DNA from: Bacillota bacterium
GTDB lineage: Bacteria; Bacillota_I; Bacilli_A; Izemoplasmatales; Hujiaoplasmataceae
Reading direction: 5' to 3'
NCBI GenBank assembly: GCA_018818595.1
Contig: JAHIRM010000036.1
Coordinates: 1 to 64,000 of the forward strand
Length of the DNA: 64,000 nt
The position numbers and the translations under genes are program-made. Below, piece after piece: positions 1-48,351 of the stretch. The notes beneath the pieces were generated by a model, which saw only the letters and a program-made list of their open reading frames with translations, was not told where the DNA came from and did no database searches. Every line of letters begins with the position of its first letter. Within the stretch, counting starts at the first letter, position 1.

Positions 1-815
1 AAATACTCGATTTCTCCATCATTTATGTCAAATAGTTCCAAGATTAGTTTCTGAAGAATTAGTTCTGGGGATTTATTTGGACCTACTATTGCTAATATTT
101 CGCCTTTTGTTAATTTTAAATTTAAATCAAACATGTCTTTGTTCTCTTTAGATAATTGTAAACTCATTTTATTGTTTAAAAAAACAGATTGATCTAAATT
201 ATCTAAATTGCGATATAAATTTATACTTTGAATTAAAGTAGATACCAAACTAGACACATCCGAACTTGTAAAAGTGTCTTTAAATACAAACGGTAAAAAA
301 TAATATTGAATTTCGACATTTTTAATAAACATTTTTAAGATTGTAGATTTCATTTTGTAATCTTTTAAAATCAAATTTTCGATTACTGGCAGTACTTTAT
401 CAACAAGAGATGAAATGCAATGCTCTAATCTGTTATTTTTCAAATCTTCTTTTTCAAGAAACGAATTATAATTTAACATAAGTAATTCTGGATTTAATGA
501 ATAAAGATTATATGAATTAGTGAAGAAAGCGTGTAATAAAACTTCAAGTGAAAAATTTCCTTTTAAATATTGAGTCTGTTTTTCAAAAATATTTAATTGT
601 TCAATGTAGAGATAGTCCATTAATGCATAATATAAATCCAATTTATCATTGAATCGATAATAAAAACTTCCTTTATTTAATCCCGATGTTTTGATAATAT
701 CGTTTAATGATGCAACTTCAAAGCTTTTATGCGCAAATTCACTTAAAGTGGCTATAAATAAGTCTTTATTGTTTTTCAAAAAATATGTTTTATCGTTAAT
801 TTCCATGGTTTTCAT
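1..815 (-). CDS. TetR-type regulator fused to a degenerate ABC ATPase-like domain (partial at left edge)
   Basis: The frame is open from an ATG at 815 to the window edge (271 residues visible). A good AGGAGGT site lies 7 bases upstream. Residues about 17-65 form a TetR-type helix-turn-helix, with the typical GLNKGSFYYRF recognition segment. Residues about 70-200 are helical, like a TetR ligand/dimer domain. From about 218 the chain reads like the start of an ABC transporter ATPase (LNLKLTKGEILAIVGPN, then LFDINDGEIEY). The Walker A is broken: after G245-P246-N247 the usual G-S-G-K-S/T is K-S-P-E-L, so nucleotide binding by this site is doubtful. A tandem operator-like repeat and a promoter precede it, suggesting autoregulation. 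The rest of the ABC domain, if any, is outside the window. The TetR assignment is firm; the ABC-like part rests on about 50 residues. Confidence 0.8.
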   Translation of the reverse strand, partial: MKTMEINDKTYFLKNNKDLFIATLSEFAHKSFEVASLNDIIKTSGLNKGSFYYRFNDKLDLYYALMDYLYIEQLNIFEKQTQYLKGNFSLEVLLHAFFTNSYNLYSLNPELLMLNYNSFLEKEDLKNNRLEHCISSLVDKVLPVIENLILKDYKMKSTILKMFIKNVEIQYYFLPFVFKDTFTSSDVSSLVSTLIQSINLYRNLDNLDQSVFLNNKMSLQLSKENKDMFDLNLKLTKGEILAIVGPNKSPELILQKLILELFDINDGEIEY

Positions 816-833
816 CGCACACACCTCCTTTTT

Positions 834-861
834 GACCATACGGTCTAAACCAAGCAGTCTA
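834..861 (-). promoter_or_regulatory. Tandem 14-bp operator-like repeat for the TetR-type gene
   Basis: On the minus strand two adjacent 14-base units, TAGACTGCTTGGTT (861-848) and TAGACCGTATGGTC (847-834), share the pattern TAGACYGYWTGGTY, and each is an imperfect palindrome. They lie just downstream of the -10 box and just upstream of the ribosome site of the TetR-type gene. That is the usual place for an autorepressor site. Binding is inferred. Confidence 0.65.
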
Positions 862-890
862 ATTGTAATATATTTTTTGAAAAAATGCAA
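862..890 (-). promoter_or_regulatory. Promoter of the TetR-type gene
   Basis: The minus strand carries TTGCAT (890-885), a 17-base spacer and TACAAT (867-862). The start point would fall inside the tandem operator. Confidence 0.65.
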
Positions 891-933: not shown

Positions 934-1428
934 TTATTTATAAATGGTTGAGTACCTTTCTCTTAAAAAGCTATCTAATAATCCAAAATCATTGGCATGG
1001 TCAAATCCTTTTAAATCAACAATGTATGTCTTCTTTGTTTTTGAAGTAATGATTAAAAATTCTTTTGTTTTCCTTAATTTTGCAATTTCTAAATATGGTA
1101 TAGAAAAGGTGTTCACATTATGAATCGAAATCTCAGTATCTAAGAATTGATAATGCTGCATCACTGGGTTTTCGACTAAAGGACTATTCTTAAGAATCCG
1201 TTTGGTTGAATACCATTGCATGATATAGGTTAATAAAAAATATAGTAACAGAATTGAAAATAAAAGTAATACATAATCCCACCGTTCCAATACAATCATA
1301 TAGATGCTAAATCCAATTGTCACAACCGCCATGATGGAAAAGTTTTTTTGCATAAACGTTTGCAGATAATATTTATTGTACTTTATAATCAATTCCTGAT
1401 TATAAAGAGTTGCATTATGAATGTTCAA
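934..1428 (-). CDS. YcxB-like membrane protein
   Basis: 164 residues. Two membrane segments lie at about 30-47 and 51-70, followed by a soluble domain of about 90 residues with the pattern of YcxB-like proteins: a predicted beta-rich segment with IPYLEIAKLRKTKEFLIIT. The function of this family is unknown. The start is a TTG at 1428, supported by GAGGTGG seven bases upstream. It is the last gene before a clear terminator and lies 15 bases after the PAP2 gene, so it probably ends the thyA-to-here transcript. The family match is by general architecture, so a different small membrane protein is possible. Confidence 0.6.
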   Translation of the reverse strand: MNIHNATLYNQELIIKYNKYYLQTFMQKNFSIMAVVTIGFSIYMIVLERWDYVLLLFSILLLYFLLTYIMQWYSTKRILKNSPLVENPVMQHYQFLDTEISIHNVNTFSIPYLEIAKLRKTKEFLIITSKTKKTYIVDLKGFDHANDFGLLDSFLRERYSTIYK

Positions 1429-16229: not shown

Positions 16230-16438
16230 AAAATAAAAAAAACGGCCTTAAAAAAGGACGATTTTATCGCGGTACCACCTTTGTTCTAGATAAATCTAGC
16301 ACTCATTCCATTAACGCTGGGGACGGATAAAACTACTAAAGTTCATTCTATCTACTCCATGGCGACATTCATCAATCCTTTTGGTAAACTTACACCTACC
16401 GTTTACTCTCTTTTTTTCCGGGCTTGACTACTCTTCCA
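16230..16438 (-). promoter_or_regulatory. T-box leader, valine specific
   Basis: On the minus strand the T-box core AGGTGGTACCGCG lies at 16280-16268. It is followed by a terminator hairpin (CGTCCTT/AAGGCCG, about 16260-16243) and a T-run. Stem I shows AGAGAG and a GTC specifier at 16366-16364, in GAATGTCGCC. The UGGU bulge in the core pairs with ACCA of tRNA-Val. The 5' part of Stem I lies inside the coding end of the upstream methyltransferase (stop at 16403). A TACAAT box at 16448-16443 could be the -10 of a promoter within that gene. Confidence 0.9.
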
Positions 16439-17131
16439 CTTCATTGTATTTTGAGAGTATTCTACCAAATTCTCTTCGAATTGTAAAGTACATTCATGAT
16501 AATTTTCAATAATGATGATTCCAACACAAAACGAGATTTTCATAAAACTTAATTTTAATTGAGAATTAACTTTTTGAAGTAATTGATTGAATACATGATA
16601 ATACTCTGATTCATCCCAAATATCAGAGGAAGATTTATAACATCTTTTTTTTGATTCTTCATCTAAAAAGAGAATATCTCCGATATAGATTTTTCCAAAA
16701 GGAGTCAAATAATTTAGCAGGTAATGAATCATATCAACGTATTTATCAATATCCAAATGATGCATGCAAAAAGTAGAAACAATAAAATCAAATTTTTCAT
16801 CTTGAATTTCTTTTGGCAATCCTTGTACAAAGTCATGTAAAAAGAAAGTAGAGCTTGGCAAACGAAGTTTGGCGATTTCTAACATGTTTTTCGAAAAATC
16901 AACTCCGGTAAGTTTTAATAATTCGGGTTTGATTTTTTGATAAAGTTGTCCGGTTCCTATGCCAATATCCAAAATCTTATATTCGTTTAAATGAAGCTGT
17001 GCCATAATTTCTTTGGCAATTCGGTCCATCATTTCCTCATAGCCAGCATAAGGAAATAATTTTAAACGATCAATTTCTTGAATGGCTTGATCATAACTTG
17101 AAGCAATTCGATTAAAGTACTCTGAAAGCAT
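16403..17131 (-). CDS. SAM-dependent methyltransferase (class I)
   Basis: 242 residues. ILDIGIGTGQLYQKI (about 56-70) is the SAM-binding motif I, LTGVDFSKNMLEIAK is motif II and FDFIVSTFCMHHLD is the acidic/hydrophobic motif III region; LTPFGKIYIGDILF follows. The substrate is unknown. AAAAGGTG precedes the ATG. The last dozen codons (KWKSSQARKKRE) are encoded by the 5' half of the valine T-box Stem I, so this C-terminal tail is shaped by RNA structure. It lies 37 bases after engB on the same strand. Confidence 0.82.
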   Translation of the reverse strand: MLSEYFNRIASSYDQAIQEIDRLKLFPYAGYEEMMDRIAKEIMAQLHLNEYKILDIGIGTGQLYQKIKPELLKLTGVDFSKNMLEIAKLRLPSSTFFLHDFVQGLPKEIQDEKFDFIVSTFCMHHLDIDKYVDMIHYLLNYLTPFGKIYIGDILFLDEESKKRCYKSSSDIWDESEYYHVFNQLLQKVNSQLKLSFMKISFCVGIIIIENYHECTLQFEENLVEYSQNTMKWKSSQARKKRE

Positions 17132-27084: not shown

Positions 27085-27317
27085 TCCTCCTAAAAAAAAA
27101 CGCCCTCAAAAATAAGGACGATTATTACCGCGGTACCACCTTTGTTCTAGAAAACTAGCGCTTGAGTCGTTAACGCCGACTTACGAAGTTATTTACGTTT
27201 GTTCAATAACTCTCTCCTAGGTGATAAACCACTTTCTGTTTCCTTGTTTGCACCAAATACAAGGTCTCTTAAAAACAGTGAAAGTGATATTTGTCCTAAT
27301 CATCGATTTATATATGT
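27085..27317 (-). promoter_or_regulatory. T-box leader, isoleucine specific
   Basis: The core AGGTGGTACCGCG lies at 27141-27129 (minus strand). It is followed by a terminator hairpin CGTCCT/AGGGCG (27120-27101) and nine T. A specifier ATC (Ile) lies at 27225-27223 in TTTATCACC, the same context as GTC in the valine leader. Uncharged tRNA-Ile should stabilise the antiterminator and allow ileS transcription. Confidence 0.92.
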
Positions 27318-36083: not shown

Positions 36084-36114
36084 ATCTTTATGAGGGAAAG
36101 TTGAGGTGAACGAA

Positions 36115-39100
36115 ATGGCAAAAAATCGCGATATCATTTCATATGTGCTGAATAGATTTCCAGCTTTTTTTAACGACCATAAGACCGTTCAAACCGCCAT
36201 TGATCTTGAACTTTCTCAAGTATTAGAAAATTACAAGTACGAAATTGAACGGATTAGACAAAACTATGAATCATTTGAAGCGGATCATTTTAATGAATTT
36301 ATTTTAACTGAAATGAATTTCCATAAATCCATTGATTTCGTAAATGAAGAATATCATGAATTATTTCAGAATATTGAAGAAGATATTTTTAATCACGAAG
36401 AAGTCGTAAAACAATCTATAAATGAAGAAAATGATTATTTTAATTCTGCTTTGCAATCAATTGAACAACTTAAACATGACGCATACTTGCAATTTCTGGA
36501 ATTAACCAAAAATTCAGATGAAGCCATTGATAAAGAAATGAAAGTTCATCATGATTTCTTAAAATTAGAACAAAAGAAATATGATTCACTTCAAAATGAC
36601 TATCAAGAAATTAATTCCGAACAAGCAAACATTCTTTTGTGGACAATTGAGAAATCTAAAAATGCTTTGATTGCGCTTAAAAAACAATTGAATAAAGATT
36701 CATCCAACCAAGCACAATTTATGAACGAATCCGTACTTCAAGTGATTGAAGCGTTAAGAAACACTAAAAATAAGATGAATGCTTTGTTTAAAAGCTCTTC
36801 TGACATCTATACTCGTCAGAAAGCAAGAATTGAAGGACTTAGTCACCAAAGACAAAAGCCTCATTCTTTAATTAATCAAACGATTATTCATCAATTTGTC
36901 AAACAAATCAAAGATGTCAACCAAAAGAAAAATTCTTTTGAAAAGTTAATTCAAAAAGAATATAAAGAAACAAAAGAAATCATTGGAAGAAAAATCATTG
37001 AGTCAGATAAAAATGGTCAATCACGCTTGACTGAAAAATATATTATGCAATATGAGATTATTCAAAATAAAGCAAATTATTTACTGAAAAGAAATCAATC
37101 GATGGCTGATTTATTAATTTCTAAATATCAAAATGAGATCAAAAAAATTAAAATTGATTCTTTTAAACGTGTAGAAGAGATAAAACTTGCTTATTATATG
37201 CCTGCAGCTTTTTTCCAAAACAGTATTAATTTATATAGTAATTTTGCTTTTTACGTAAATGAATCTTTTGATGAATTAGATAATATTTTAGCTGAATTCA
37301 TTCAATTTAATCAACAAATTACTGAAATGGAAAGCAATTACATCACGCAAAGCGCTAAAACGCTTGAAGATTATAAAATTAATGTAATGGTTCGAGTCAA
37401 CAACATTACTTCTACTTTGACCGATTTAATTACTCAAATCGATTTCTTCAGTAAAGAAATTGTGACACTTGAATCAAACAATCAACTCGAAGTGGCTTCC
37501 ATTCGAAAACGTATGGAAAACACTGATATATCTGGAGATTATAATAAATATCTCGCTGAATTAAAAGAAGATGAATTTTTTGCCAAATACCAACATGACA
37601 TTAACCTAAAGAAAATCGAATCAGAATCCAACCTTCAAAATGGTTTGATTTCGATTCACAAAGAAAGTACTTTCTTGCATTTGGCAAAACAACATAATCT
37701 TGTTAGAAAAGATTATTTGTTGAATCTAAATCAAGTCGAAAAGAAAATTCATGAATTAGCCTATGATAAAGACCTTGCCTATGCAAAAGCAGTCTTTGAA
37801 AGAGCAAAAGCTTTAGATATTCACCAAATGAAATATAATAAATCGATGATAAGCTATGAAATCAATCGGTTAAATTATCAATATGCTATCGCTTTTGAAA
37901 ATTACAAAAAACAATTTTCACTTTTCCAACAAGAAGGAAGCAATAAAATTGTAGACTTCGTTCATCAAAAACAATTGTTAATTGATCAAATTGAAGCAGA
38001 TAAAGTGCATGTTTCTTTTTTCGTTGAAAATTCAAAAGAAGATCGAACTTATGCTTATTATCTTGAAACATTACGCTATAAATTAATTCATGAATTTGAT
38101 CAACAAACAAGTAAAAAAACAGCTTTAGCACACAAGGACATTCAAACCATTCATCACGAATTTAGAACAATAATAAAGAGCATACATACAAAAATCGATT
38201 TATTTATGAATCCATGGAAAACTCAATTACTTCATCAAGATAAATTATCTGATCAAACTATTATTTTGCCTTTTATGAATAGCAGATCTCAAATGCACTC
38301 CGTCGTTAACATTTTGAATGCTATCATGAATGATTGTTTACAATTGACTCAAAAATACAATTACCTCAACTTGAACCAATCATTGTCAAAATGGATGGAT
38401 CAAAACATTATAGAATACGTTATTAATGCTTCTTCTGCTCAACATTTTCTTCAAAAAAACACACTCAAACCAGTAAAACAAAATACTATTTATAAAGAAT
38501 ATTTAATTGAATCGATTATTCTCTTTAAAAAAATTTATTTTAAATTGTACAACGTTCTTGACTCTACTGAGTTGCTTGCGATTAAAAACGATGTATTGTT
38601 TGTAAGCCAGATTTATGATAAAGCAAGCGAAACGAAGAATATTATTAACAATCAATACGACCGTTTAGTTTATGAAGCTGTCAAATCTGGTAAGAATCGA
38701 GCTAAACAATTACAAAAAATTAAACAAGATTCCTTTTTACTGGAAACAAAACTCAAAGATCAAGTGATTGAAATGAATAAAGCCTTTGAGCGCTCTACTA
38801 GGATTGATTCTGATGAATACGAATACTTAGAAACTAAAATTAATCAAATCATTCAAAAAAATCAAAAATTATTGAAACACAAAATTCTATTATATGATAA
38901 ATCTCATAAACGCAGTTTCAATACCATTGACAATCGATTTCATATGTTTGAAACAGCATATCAACGTCTAAAATCTCAAATAGAACTTGATTTCCATTTG
39001 GAAAATGAGTATATTGAATCCTTAGCAATAAATGATGATCAAATATCTTCTCGTAGTCTTTCAAAATTAGAACAAGAAATCTCTATTCTTCCCATAACTT

Positions 39101-39576
39101 CTAAAGAAGTCACTTCTAGTTTAGAAGCAACCAAACTAACTCTTATTCAAGAGCGTAGGTTAACCTTACTTCAAGAATTTGCTCATATTGAGGAAACTAA
39201 ATTTGTCTCTAGGCCTCAATTTTTACTTGAAATTGAAGATGTAAAGAAACGACTTCCTAGTGACTATTTAGAAATTTATAAAAAAATTCAATTAGCAGAA
39301 GAAACTTTTTTAAAACAATACACTCAATCGAATCAAGATCATTTAAATGATTACTTGCAATTTTATGATGCCCAAAGTGATTATCATAAAATTATTGAAG
39401 AAGGAAACTTAATTAATCTTCCTTTTGACAAATATTATTCCCTTCAAGAATCTCTTTATAAAAAATCAATCGATGCCTATAAAGACACTCTTACCAAAGC
39501 TAAAAACACAAAAGATGCAATAACACTTGAGGAAACCAAATCTAGTCAAAAACAAGATCGCATCATAAACGTGTAG
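36115..39576 (+). CDS. Giant coiled-coil protein A, unknown function
   Basis: 1153 residues, almost entirely predicted helix with long stretches of heptad-like spacing, rich in Glu, Lys, Gln, Asn, Ile, Tyr and His. Pro and Gly are rare and only one Cys is seen. There is no signal peptide, no membrane segment, no P-loop or other enzyme motif. Residues about 720-790 (around NPWKTQLLHQDK to NLNQSLSKWMDQN) look less coiled and may be a small helical domain. The ATG at 36115 has GAGGTG six bases upstream; the GTG at 36106 overlaps that site. It is followed 13 bases later by a second protein of the same type. A structural or scaffold role is inferred from composition only. Confidence 0.8.
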   Translation: MAKNRDIISYVLNRFPAFFNDHKTVQTAIDLELSQVLENYKYEIERIRQNYESFEADHFNEFILTEMNFHKSIDFVNEEYHELFQNIEEDIFNHEEVVKQSINEENDYFNSALQSIEQLKHDAYLQFLELTKNSDEAIDKEMKVHHDFLKLEQKKYDSLQNDYQEINSEQANILLWTIEKSKNALIALKKQLNKDSSNQAQFMNESVLQVIEALRNTKNKMNALFKSSSDIYTRQKARIEGLSHQRQKPHSLINQTIIHQFVKQIKDVNQKKNSFEKLIQKEYKETKEIIGRKIIESDKNGQSRLTEKYIMQYEIIQNKANYLLKRNQSMADLLISKYQNEIKKIKIDSFKRVEEIKLAYYMPAAFFQNSINLYSNFAFYVNESFDELDNILAEFIQFNQQITEMESNYITQSAKTLEDYKINVMVRVNNITSTLTDLITQIDFFSKEIVTLESNNQLEVASIRKRMENTDISGDYNKYLAELKEDEFFAKYQHDINLKKIESESNLQNGLISIHKESTFLHLAKQHNLVRKDYLLNLNQVEKKIHELAYDKDLAYAKAVFERAKALDIHQMKYNKSMISYEINRLNYQYAIAFENYKKQFSLFQQEGSNKIVDFVHQKQLLIDQIEADKVHVSFFVENSKEDRTYAYYLETLRYKLIHEFDQQTSKKTALAHKDIQTIHHEFRTIIKSIHTKIDLFMNPWKTQLLHQDKLSDQTIILPFMNSRSQMHSVVNILNAIMNDCLQLTQKYNYLNLNQSLSKWMDQNIIEYVINASSAQHFLQKNTLKPVKQNTIYKEYLIESIILFKKIYFKLYNVLDSTELLAIKNDVLFVSQIYDKASETKNIINNQYDRLVYEAVKSGKNRAKQLQKIKQDSFLLETKLKDQVIEMNKAFERSTRIDSDEYEYLETKINQIIQKNQKLLKHKILLYDKSHKRSFNTIDNRFHMFETAYQRLKSQIELDFHLENEYIESLAINDDQISSRSLSKLEQEISILPITSKEVTSSLEATKLTLIQERRLTLLQEFAHIEETKFVSRPQFLLEIEDVKKRLPSDYLEIYKKIQLAEETFLKQYTQSNQDHLNDYLQFYDAQSDYHKIIEEGNLINLPFDKYYSLQESLYKKSIDAYKDTLTKAKNTKDAITLEETKSSQKQDRIINV

Positions 39577-39589
39577 AAAGGAGTTCAAG

Positions 39590-42523
39590 GTGGCTCAATC
39601 TGAAACCAAATTGCAAAAAGACATCCATAATCAAAAAATTTATGAAGAATCGTTAAAAACTTCTTTTACCGATGAAATGAAATTTTATGATGAGTTCTTT
39701 CATAAAATATCTGCTCATGCGTCTACTCATAGACAAATCACCTTGAATAACCTAAATGATGCAGAAGAACGTTTAGACCAATTAAAAATTGAAGCTTCAA
39801 ATTTAAAAGAAGCTCTTTTTTATCATGACGAAACCGCCATTGTAGATCGTCAAGAGATTATTTCCGAAACCGAAGCTAGTGTTCACGAACAAAACGAAGT
39901 CTTACTTCATCACGATCGATTGGAAGCCTCAGAAATATTAGATACAATCGATTATCTAAATAAAGCATTAATCCAAGTTAAATCTTCGTTTTTTGAAACC
40001 TATCAAAGAACGTATTTAAATAATCTTTATAATACTGATAAATTCTTTGATTTCTTTACCGAGCAATCTTCTCGTTTTCAAAAAGTGTTAGATCAACATC
40101 AAGAAGAAATAATGGATTTGTTCTTAAGCTTAAACGAAGAAATTAAAGGGATGGATTCTACTATTTCCGAAATCATTCAAAAAAAGAATCAATTTGTAAA
40201 ACAAATTAACCGTTTTTATGAACAAGAAACAAAACATTATGTTGATAATCAATTGTTGTTTAGCGCGGAAGACGATCCGACGTCTATTGACATTCAAGCA
40301 CTTGTTTCCGATAAGATTAATCAATTTGAAGCTTTTAAAAAACATCTATTTGAACAAGATTTGAAGATTGAACAGCTTTTAGTTCAAGATTATAAGAGAC
40401 TATATCAAAACATTTATGAGCGATTACTCAATCGAAAATCAAATTTAATGACAGGAGACATCCACTTCTTTAAAAACCCTGAAAAAAACATTTTAGAGCT
40501 AAAAGAAGCAATTCTGAATGCTCGAAATAATAAAAATTTTACTTTATTAAAAAAATTAATTTCTCAATATGATGAAGTGAAGCATTATCATAATAGCATG
40601 TTATCATGCCAAGCGAAAGCAAAAAAATTAGTAAAAAAGAATCAAAAAGAAAAAAGAGAATATCTCCTTTTATATCGTTTTGAATCTAATAAAATGTTAA
40701 ATCAACTAGAAGAATACTTAGTTTTATACCAAAGATTAATGACGTTCGATCCTTTTTTAGCTCAAACAATTGGAGAATTTTCATCAAAAATCATTAAGGA
40801 TGAATTAACTCACTTATCCATACTTGAAGTGAATAAAGAGTTAAAAACAAACATCAATTACGATATTGAATCTTTAAAAGTTAAAAATAAAATTAATGAA
40901 ATTGAACAAAAGTTGATTTACGAAGTTAAGAAACATCTTCTTCTTCAAGAAATAAAACTTTTAGATATTATTAATCAAATTCAATTCTTTCTAATTGACC
41001 GTAAAATAATTTTCTATAAATCAAAACAATCTATTACGAAAGAACGTTTTTTGATAGAACGTTTAGATGCTGCAATGAATTATCATTTAGAGTATTTACA
41101 AGAATCTGGAAATATTAACCGAAAATGGCAATCACTCGTATCTTTAAAATTAATCCAACAAATTAGAAATGATGAAACGCACAATATTCATGTTGTGGAA
41201 GCCGCTTCAAAAGTGAAACTGGCTTTGAAAGAATACGATATGACTGCTCTTCATTTTAAAACGATGCATGAAACCGAAATGGCTTATTTGATTATGCAAT
41301 CTTCAAGAGTTGAGGAAGAAACAAAAATACATCATGAGTTCATCTTAACTACATATTTGAATCAAATGAGATTTTCCAAAGAACAAATAGAGTTAGCAGA
41401 ATCGGAGTATCGAATTCGTGTAGAATCTTTGATGCAAATTATCGATGAAGAAAAATCATATTTTGAGGATATCATTCAAAATACAACTCTTAAAGCGTCG
41501 AAAATGCAAAAGCAAATTGAGGATGAATATCAAGCTTTACTTTATAAAAACACTCATTTTTTATCTGAAAATACAGACGTTAAAATCAGTAAATTAATTC
41601 ACAAGGAAATGGAAAAAATTTCCAAGCAACAAACCGATGCAATTAATAAAATCCACCAAGATTTAGCGAAGAACGAAACCATTCTTACTTCAAAAAGAAA
41701 AATACAAGAACTCGACGTTCATCTAGACGATGCATTAAAAGACGCTGAAAATTTGCGAAATGATACCATTCAAGAAATGACAGATAGTTATCAAGATGCA
41801 AAGAATCATTATGAAGCACTAAAACCTTATCTTGAGAGCAAAGTCAATATTTTAGATCCAAGTTTTTACAATACCTTAGAAAAAATGAATGATCGTTATC
41901 ATTATAAACTCAAAGTGGCAGAAATTGAAATAGACGTTGCCTCAAAAGATTTATTAGATCAATACTTATCGGTTTACTTTGAGGATCAACCTATTCACAA
42001 CCAGGCACAACTTCTTGCTCAAATCGATGAAATTACGCTTTCAAGAGACACTTGCAGAACTGAGTATGCTCAAAAAATGCAAAAACTTGAAGATGGATAT
42101 AAGGTGAGCTTTTTACCTTTAGATGAAGAAATTAAAGCAATCGATGCGGATGCTTCTTTGTTAAAGGAAACCGCTAAAATAAAGGAAGAAGCGACAGTTC
42201 ACTCGATTCAATATGAATTAACACAATTGGAAAAAAGTTATCTTATTCTTGTAGATAAACATCAAATTGCTTTGTCAAATCAAATTGATGCCCTTACAAA
42301 TGAGTACAAAGCTGCTCTAGTGAATAATCAAAAGTATACTTCAAATTTATCATCTGAGTTTGAAAAACTACTGCATAGTTATAAACCATATCTTACTCTT
42401 TCCAAAAAGAATCCAACTGTTTCTAAACTGTTTAAAGAAGTTCATATGGCTTTTAAAGCAAAACAAAAATGGACCAAAAAACAATCCATCTTAAAATATA
42501 AAAACAAAATTACTTTTAATTAA
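39590..42523 (+). CDS. Giant coiled-coil protein B, unknown function
   Basis: 977 residues from a GTG with AAAGGAG six bases upstream. It resembles protein A in composition: long charged helices, few Pro or Gly, two Cys, no signal peptide, membrane helix or nucleotide-binding motif. Segments such as DAINKIHQDLAKNETILTSK and KIQELDVHLDDALKDAENLR are good coiled-coil candidates. The C-terminus (about 925-977) is basic, ending KQSILKYKNKITFN, with a short NPTVSKLFKEV segment before it. It is co-transcribed with protein A and ends at a terminator. The two may form a heteromeric filament or scaffold; I recognise no relative. Confidence 0.8.
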   Translation: MAQSETKLQKDIHNQKIYEESLKTSFTDEMKFYDEFFHKISAHASTHRQITLNNLNDAEERLDQLKIEASNLKEALFYHDETAIVDRQEIISETEASVHEQNEVLLHHDRLEASEILDTIDYLNKALIQVKSSFFETYQRTYLNNLYNTDKFFDFFTEQSSRFQKVLDQHQEEIMDLFLSLNEEIKGMDSTISEIIQKKNQFVKQINRFYEQETKHYVDNQLLFSAEDDPTSIDIQALVSDKINQFEAFKKHLFEQDLKIEQLLVQDYKRLYQNIYERLLNRKSNLMTGDIHFFKNPEKNILELKEAILNARNNKNFTLLKKLISQYDEVKHYHNSMLSCQAKAKKLVKKNQKEKREYLLLYRFESNKMLNQLEEYLVLYQRLMTFDPFLAQTIGEFSSKIIKDELTHLSILEVNKELKTNINYDIESLKVKNKINEIEQKLIYEVKKHLLLQEIKLLDIINQIQFFLIDRKIIFYKSKQSITKERFLIERLDAAMNYHLEYLQESGNINRKWQSLVSLKLIQQIRNDETHNIHVVEAASKVKLALKEYDMTALHFKTMHETEMAYLIMQSSRVEEETKIHHEFILTTYLNQMRFSKEQIELAESEYRIRVESLMQIIDEEKSYFEDIIQNTTLKASKMQKQIEDEYQALLYKNTHFLSENTDVKISKLIHKEMEKISKQQTDAINKIHQDLAKNETILTSKRKIQELDVHLDDALKDAENLRNDTIQEMTDSYQDAKNHYEALKPYLESKVNILDPSFYNTLEKMNDRYHYKLKVAEIEIDVASKDLLDQYLSVYFEDQPIHNQAQLLAQIDEITLSRDTCRTEYAQKMQKLEDGYKVSFLPLDEEIKAIDADASLLKETAKIKEEATVHSIQYELTQLEKSYLILVDKHQIALSNQIDALTNEYKAALVNNQKYTSNLSSEFEKLLHSYKPYLTLSKKNPTVSKLFKEVHMAFKAKQKWTKKQSILKYKNKITFN

Positions 42524-47999: not shown

Positions 48000-48351
48000 A
48001 AAATCAAACCATCTATAAGCCATGTTCTGTCCGTATAAATACGTGGCAATCATTTATCTCCGGTTTCCCGTCAGTCGATTAGATTCATTTATCCATCAAC
48101 CGTTCCCCTACCAAAATTTGGGTTTCTAGCTTGTGGGGTTTACCTCGTTTCATTCATATATATTTTATATGAGTCGTCTCTGTGGCACTTTATGAATACT
48201 TTGGCCTTTAACATCCATTTCTTCGCCGTCACCTTTTAAGGGTGCCTAAACTTATTGGTTTGTTTAGCGCAATCACTACAAGCATCTCAGCCTGTGCTAG
48301 CATGGACTTTCCTAACAGTTTCCTGCTCGATTACCCGATGGTTTGATTATT
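48000..48351 (-). ncRNA. rnpB: RNase P RNA, bacterial type B
   Basis: On the minus strand the conserved 5' part reads ATCGGGTAATCG, then GGAAAGTCCATGCTAGCAC and GGCTGAGATGCTTGTAGTG, as in Bacillus RNase P RNA. The 3' part ends ACAGAACATGGCTTATAGATG. The outer helix P1 pairs 48338-48349 with 48002-48013 (ATCAAACCATC against GATGGTTTGAT). It is the catalytic RNA that trims tRNA 5' ends. It begins about six bases after the pnp stop, with no clear promoter between, and is followed by a strong terminator. Confidence 0.95.

Follow-up and report, generated by a model that had tools for sequence, protein, structure and literature searches.

Soluble ligands are the usual signals of TetR proteins, and ABC ATPases provide the energy for transport. 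The TetR/AcrR regulators MtrR, CmeR and QacR, often tied to efflux pumps, possess a helix-turn-helix (HTH) head that acts on palindromic operators, and they stop after the ligand-binding domain, without any ATPase-derived domain. Connections between ABC transporters and gene regulation are found in other systems. BceAB-BceRS signals via a two-component system, and its ATPase is active. Its ABC transporter serves in drug sensing as well as in resistance (PMC7828314). In E. coli, the regulator MalT is anchored to the membrane by MalK while no maltose is being transported, so that the transport state governs the membrane tethering of a transcription factor by an ABC ATPase subunit (PMC10427625). 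In that pair, MalK is an active importer ATPase, MalT is a separate STAND activator, and their contact is non-covalent. Finally, operons composed of a TetR gene, a DrrA/NodI-type ABC ATPase gene and ABC-2 permease genes (e.g., C36:65944-68959) encode unfused proteins, with intact ATPase motifs and two permeases.

Here, we describe a gene at the edge of a 64,000-nucleotide stretch of DNA from a Bacillota bacterium of the Izemoplasmatales (hereafter the window), in which a TetR regulator continues, within a single reading frame, into an ABC ATPase-like domain. The locus resembles the DrrA/NodI-type operons in its gene order and protein families, and MtrR, CmeR and QacR in its HTH head and putative palindromic operators; however, it differs from the former by being fused and from the latter by the ATPase-derived extension. 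The use of an ABC transporter in sensing would be shared with BceAB-BceRS, which differs by its two-component signalling and active ATPase, and the principle that we propose for the fusion is that of MalK and MalT, except that regulator and ATPase are covalently linked and the contact with the permease is only predicted. A search of openly accessible papers found no description of a TetR/ABC fusion or of a TetR-linked pseudo-ATPase.

The N-terminal 271 codons of the gene form a single open frame at positions 3-815 of the window (minus strand), which runs off the contig, base 1 of contig C36 being base 1 of the window. The ATG at position 815, just behind an AGGAGG ribosome-binding site, is the likely start; the TTG at 890 chosen by the ORF finder was rejected, as it sits inside the -35 box. 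The initial annotation had read this uninterrupted frame as a TetR head followed by an ABC ATPase-like stretch, and profile searches agree with it. Pfam TetR_N (PF00440) matches residues 22-64 (positions 624-752, minus strand) with an E-value of 1.1e-7 and 31.9 bits against a cut-off of 24, and the fusion gene scores 35.3 bits in the genome-level search; the NKGSFYYR residues of the recognition-helix region are invariant across the family. Positions 183-623 (minus strand) code for the TetR ligand-binding/dimerisation helices plus a linker, a segment that is helical in the model of a relative (L064), in which the helices of this domain reach residue 195. With an HTH head and, judging from this model, a helical C-terminal ligand/dimerisation domain of about 150 residues, the protein has the anatomy of a TetR/AcrR regulator, and its sequence matches in the PDB include MtrR and CmeR. 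The remaining part (positions 3-182, minus strand), assigned from an ABC_tran match and homolog alignment, corresponds to the first 60 or so residues of an ABC ATPase-like (pseudo-ATPase) domain, and the residue order LTKGEILAIVGPN...GEIEY is present as annotated. Here, ABC_tran aligns over residues 230-269 and profile positions 3-42 with an E-value of 0.17, a weak match explained by the truncation of the domain at the contig end.

Such a weak match, in a frame ending at a contig edge, might be produced by a TetR gene reading into unrelated DNA, by chance or through misassembly. We consider the probability of this to be negligible and rejected the explanation, since the fusion is present in 24 other genomes, including the single-contig genomes G018 and G025, and the missing half was located in the same genome. 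The remaining 219 residues are encoded outside the window, on contig C9 (G000:C9:2-661, plus strand). When the genome was searched with a full-length relative, the match on this contig (G000:C9:5-655) started at residue 273 of the relative, and the window piece ends at residue 270. Contig C9 opens in frame, the junction of ...GAG TAT TT in the window with A AAT AAG preserving the reading frame, and the joined protein would have 491 residues, compared with 490 in the relative L029. The C9 half alone exceeds the ABC_tran cut-off (37.9 bits against 25) over profile positions 53-134, complementary to those matched by the window piece, and is collinear with the full-length relatives. The contigs abut with zero overlapping bases, and it is from these data that we infer that the two pieces form one protein. 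Furthermore, homologs align from end to end across the TetR-ABC junction, a full-length relative combines ABC_tran (3.9e-24) and TetR_N within one 490-residue protein, and ABC_tran reaches 86 bits in the relative L064/L029. The initial observation of a fusion is confirmed. An end of the frame soon after base 1, or a lack of ABC homology or fold, had been named in the initial annotation as arguing against it; neither occurred, and it is the contig, not the gene, that ends at base 1.

With regard to the ATPase domain, the Walker A motif of the window copy reads GPNKSPEL (positions 60-83, minus strand), at the place where the unfused paralog of the same genome carries GPSGAGKS, so that the P-loop is indeed broken. 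The subsequent motifs, all on C9, are equally degenerate, with LSNSS at the signature, MIFDN at Walker B (LFLDE in the paralog) and LLDRH at the H-loop (ITTH in the paralog). Walker A (GxxxxGK[ST]), signature, catalytic Glu and H-loop His are therefore all missing from this copy, and the best reading of its sequence is a catalytically dead ABC domain, consistent with the non-hydrolysing domain initially proposed. Among the aligned long fused forms, the signature is lost in all, as is the His at the aligned H-loop site (a His is found one position further in the window copy, L026 and L036), and the catalytic Glu is replaced in all but L039. Six relatives retain GxxxxGK[ST], and eighteen rows of the alignment, the window copy included, have lost it; parsimony places three to five changes for this loss on bootstrap trees, although the starred branches force only one. 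The six relatives could still bind ATP. Sensing of the nucleotide state, another early suggestion, may thus be possible for these six, but is unlikely for the window copy, whose P-loop lacks the Lys-Ser/Thr pair, and it is also an improbable shared function given the loss of the P-loop in many lineages.

For the long form L064, a relative that carries a P-loop, AlphaFold predicts a complete ABC fold (pLDDT 82), which matches single ATPases, LptB and TM_1403 among them, with TM-scores by target of 0.64-0.71 and E-values of 1e-13 to 1e-11. Thirteen relatives have a shortened C-terminus (forms of about 430-450 residues), one of them in the complete genome of strain zrk2 (CP076020). The one short form scanned gave no Pfam ABC match, but hhalign relates the short tails to those of the long fusions (E 1e-10), and they are tied to ABC proteins only via these long forms. 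The short-form model (pLDDT 82, pTM 0.46) retrieves TetR structures first, resembling 3nrg and FadR; of its 50 best matches, a single weak one is to an ABC protein.

Unfused relatives throw light on the origin of the gene. The same genome carries, 2 kb to the right of the window, an unfused paralogous operon (G000:C36:65944-68959; L060 1944-4959) in which TetR, ABC and two permease genes, in this order, overlap or abut. At five loci (L044, L045, L098, L099 and L125; the genomes concerned are G035, G045, G054, G024 and G067, of which G067 lies outside the order), unfused TetR and ABC genes share a reading frame, and one stop codon is all that separates them. The ABC proteins of L125, L044 and L045, where the whole ABC could be read (in the three genomes G035, G054 and G067), are intact, with GPSGAGKST, a YSKGMK signature, a Walker B with its Glu and an H-loop, and two ABC-2 permeases belong to the L125 operon in G067. 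A TetR - ABC ATPase - ABC-2 permease - ABC-2 permease operon is therefore the likely ancestral type, and the simplest origin of the fusion would be a lost stop codon. The permease of the fused loci is related to permease 1 of the unfused operons (E down to 1e-18) and not to permease 2, which is absent at the fused loci.

The fusion was found in 25 of the 34 genomes of the GTDB family of the window, at one syntenic locus, with DHFR-plsC-HAD-PAP2-YcxB-like genes upstream and the permease downstream. The YcxB-like membrane protein cluster gene (positions 934-1428, minus strand) is not thought to be part of the system, but its conserved position indicates vertical inheritance of the locus. In the tree, all TetR heads of fusions fall into a single fully supported clade (100/100), and a single origin is therefore probable. 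In the 395 genomes sampled from the class and the 392 from the phylum, stop-free fusions were confined to this family, and no ABC gene was seen just downstream of the clostridial and Evansella TetR relatives (L082-L097). Plasmid records contained no place covering 80% of a full-length relative, and spread by plasmids was accordingly rejected. Elsewhere in the window, we noticed two adjacent large proteins of 1156 and 977 residues (36106-39576 and 39590-42523, plus strand) with no Pfam/NCBIfam match at the thresholds used, a class B RNase P RNA (48011-48342, minus strand; Rfam 259 bits), and T-box leaders upstream of valS and ileS (16251-16453 and 27111-27312, minus strand).

The region preceding the fusion gene contains a promoter-like TTGCAT - 17 bp - TACAAT (positions 862-890, minus strand) as read from the sequence, and directly after the -10 box a tandem palindrome of the TetR type, TAGACTGCTTGGTTTAGACCGTATGGTCAA (positions 832-861, minus strand), the sole copy in the genome at the strictness scanned. 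Conservation of this operator-like site is observed directly: at each of the 25 loci examined, the 30-bp tandem palindrome, of consensus TAnACnAnnTAGTnTAnACnAnnTGGTATA, is located immediately behind the -10 box, a count made with a regular expression that fixes some invariant columns, the independent evidence being the locus comparison and the genome-wide scan. In the latter, each family genome having the operator showed a match only at the fusion promoter, and one unrelated match was obtained in another family. We predict that the palindrome is the TetR operator; its arrangement is that expected of an autoregulated TetR gene, which would point to repression. A terminator-like hairpin followed by a T run was noticed by eye on the minus strand (positions 902-927), between the upstream 164-residue gene and the fusion promoter.

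On the other side of the fusion, the adjacent ABC permease whose presence the initial annotation left to be checked does exist. On C9, the gene order is that of the relatives, i.e., ABC-2 permease, NagK-like kinase, GH36 and GH2, and the reading frame of the 239-residue permease overlaps that of the fusion by 8 bases. This linkage is general, as the permease is present at every fusion locus with a continuing contig, the genes mostly overlapping or nearly abutting. The NagK-like BcrAD kinase, GH36 alpha-galactosidase and GH2 glycosidase (L059, on G000:C9, 1405-7103) lie on the strand of the permease with overlaps or short gaps, and probably form one operon with it under the TetR-type operator. 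Because the loci of genus g11 retain fusion and permease without GH36 and GH2, the GH genes are optional cargo; in some species, these galactosidase-type genes are a hint of a glycan-related signal. Further downstream are a trypsin-like protease on the opposite strand (L059 7128-8018, minus) and a giant repetitive protein extending past the stretch (L059 8191-12000, plus), a right flank also present in relatives.

Does the extension still serve the protein, or is the TetR head alone functional, with the ABC tail and the permease as decaying passengers? The repeated loss of the P-loop and the thirteen shortened tails are in keeping with decay, as are the tail evolving faster than the head in L035/L042 and the weak constraint on the ABC part of the long pair L031/L040 (dN/dS 0.46). 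Nevertheless, in many genera and in every member whose contig does not stop short, the frame of the tail stays open to its very end. The permease, too, is kept at every locus, and in L035/L042 it is better conserved than the tail. Furthermore, short-form pairs show dN of 0.15-0.43 against dS of 1.1 to saturated, and for L041/L043 the tail has a dN of 0.185 with synonymous sites saturated. The dN/dS ratios are 0.19-0.46 for the other measurable fusion segments and about 0.1 for the permease. Tail and permease are therefore under purifying selection, the tail being less constrained than the permease. We therefore regard decay of mere passengers as quite improbable.

ABC-2 permeases function through contact with their ATPase. 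Given that a dead ATPase is kept together with a permease and joined to a DNA-binding head, an adaptor role is the simplest one, and we favour, with reasonable though not high confidence, the view that an exporter ATPase, its catalysis lost, became an adaptor or sensor domain within its own autoregulated TetR repressor. The fused domain probably docks on the remaining permease; a conserved permease gene that overlaps the fusion agrees with the early suggestion of binding to the controlled transporter, the binding itself being our prediction. A complete ABC-2 exporter operon needs an ATPase and two permeases, or a homodimer; the fusion locus has one permease, which possibly acts as a homodimer. 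A working exporter may be imagined, in which the degenerate fused nucleotide-binding domain (NBD) pairs with an active ATPase in trans (e.g., the NBD of the paralogous operon, C36:67462-68325), transport being reported by the TetR head. ABC transporters are known in which only one of the two NBDs is degenerate, over thirty ABC matches are present in the genome, a close and intact paralog among them, and the permease is well conserved. However, every catalytic motif is gone in the window copy rather than one site, no second NBD adjoins the fusion at any locus, one permease was lost, and a TetR dimer would pair two dead NBDs, which makes a trans-acting ATPase unlikely.

For the dead-adaptor reading, we propose the following scheme, in which repression, docking, signal and loss of transport are all inferred. 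The first two genes of an ancestral TetR - ABC ATPase - ABC-2 permease - ABC-2 permease operon would have been fused when the stop codon of TetR was lost; the second permease would have disappeared and the ATPase shed its catalytic motifs. Repression of the operon would come from TetR dimers sitting on the tandem operator next to the promoter, while their dead ABC domains would still have the docking surface for the remaining permease, on its cytoplasmic side. If the permease (or the TetR pocket) senses a ligand or a state of the membrane, this signal could be transmitted across the ABC-permease contact, releasing or sequestering the DNA-binding heads, and derepression would allow expression of the permease gene, along with the kinase, GH36 and GH2 genes where these lie downstream. 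Alternatively, the ABC domain may serve to hold the TetR head at the membrane. At the extreme, the exporter would have been wholly turned into a transcription receptor, with the permease as receptor, the dead ATPase as transducer and the TetR head as output, the regulator being membrane-tethered through a pseudo-transporter, a version that we put forward tentatively.

In this family, TetR and ABC are thus united in a single protein, and catalysis has been discarded stepwise across one bacterial family, with permease and operator retained. Unfused, fused with a P-loop, fused without it, and shortened forms are all extant, and constitute a natural series from an exporter operon to an apparent sensor, in which the proposed change from transporter to signalling receptor is open to direct testing.
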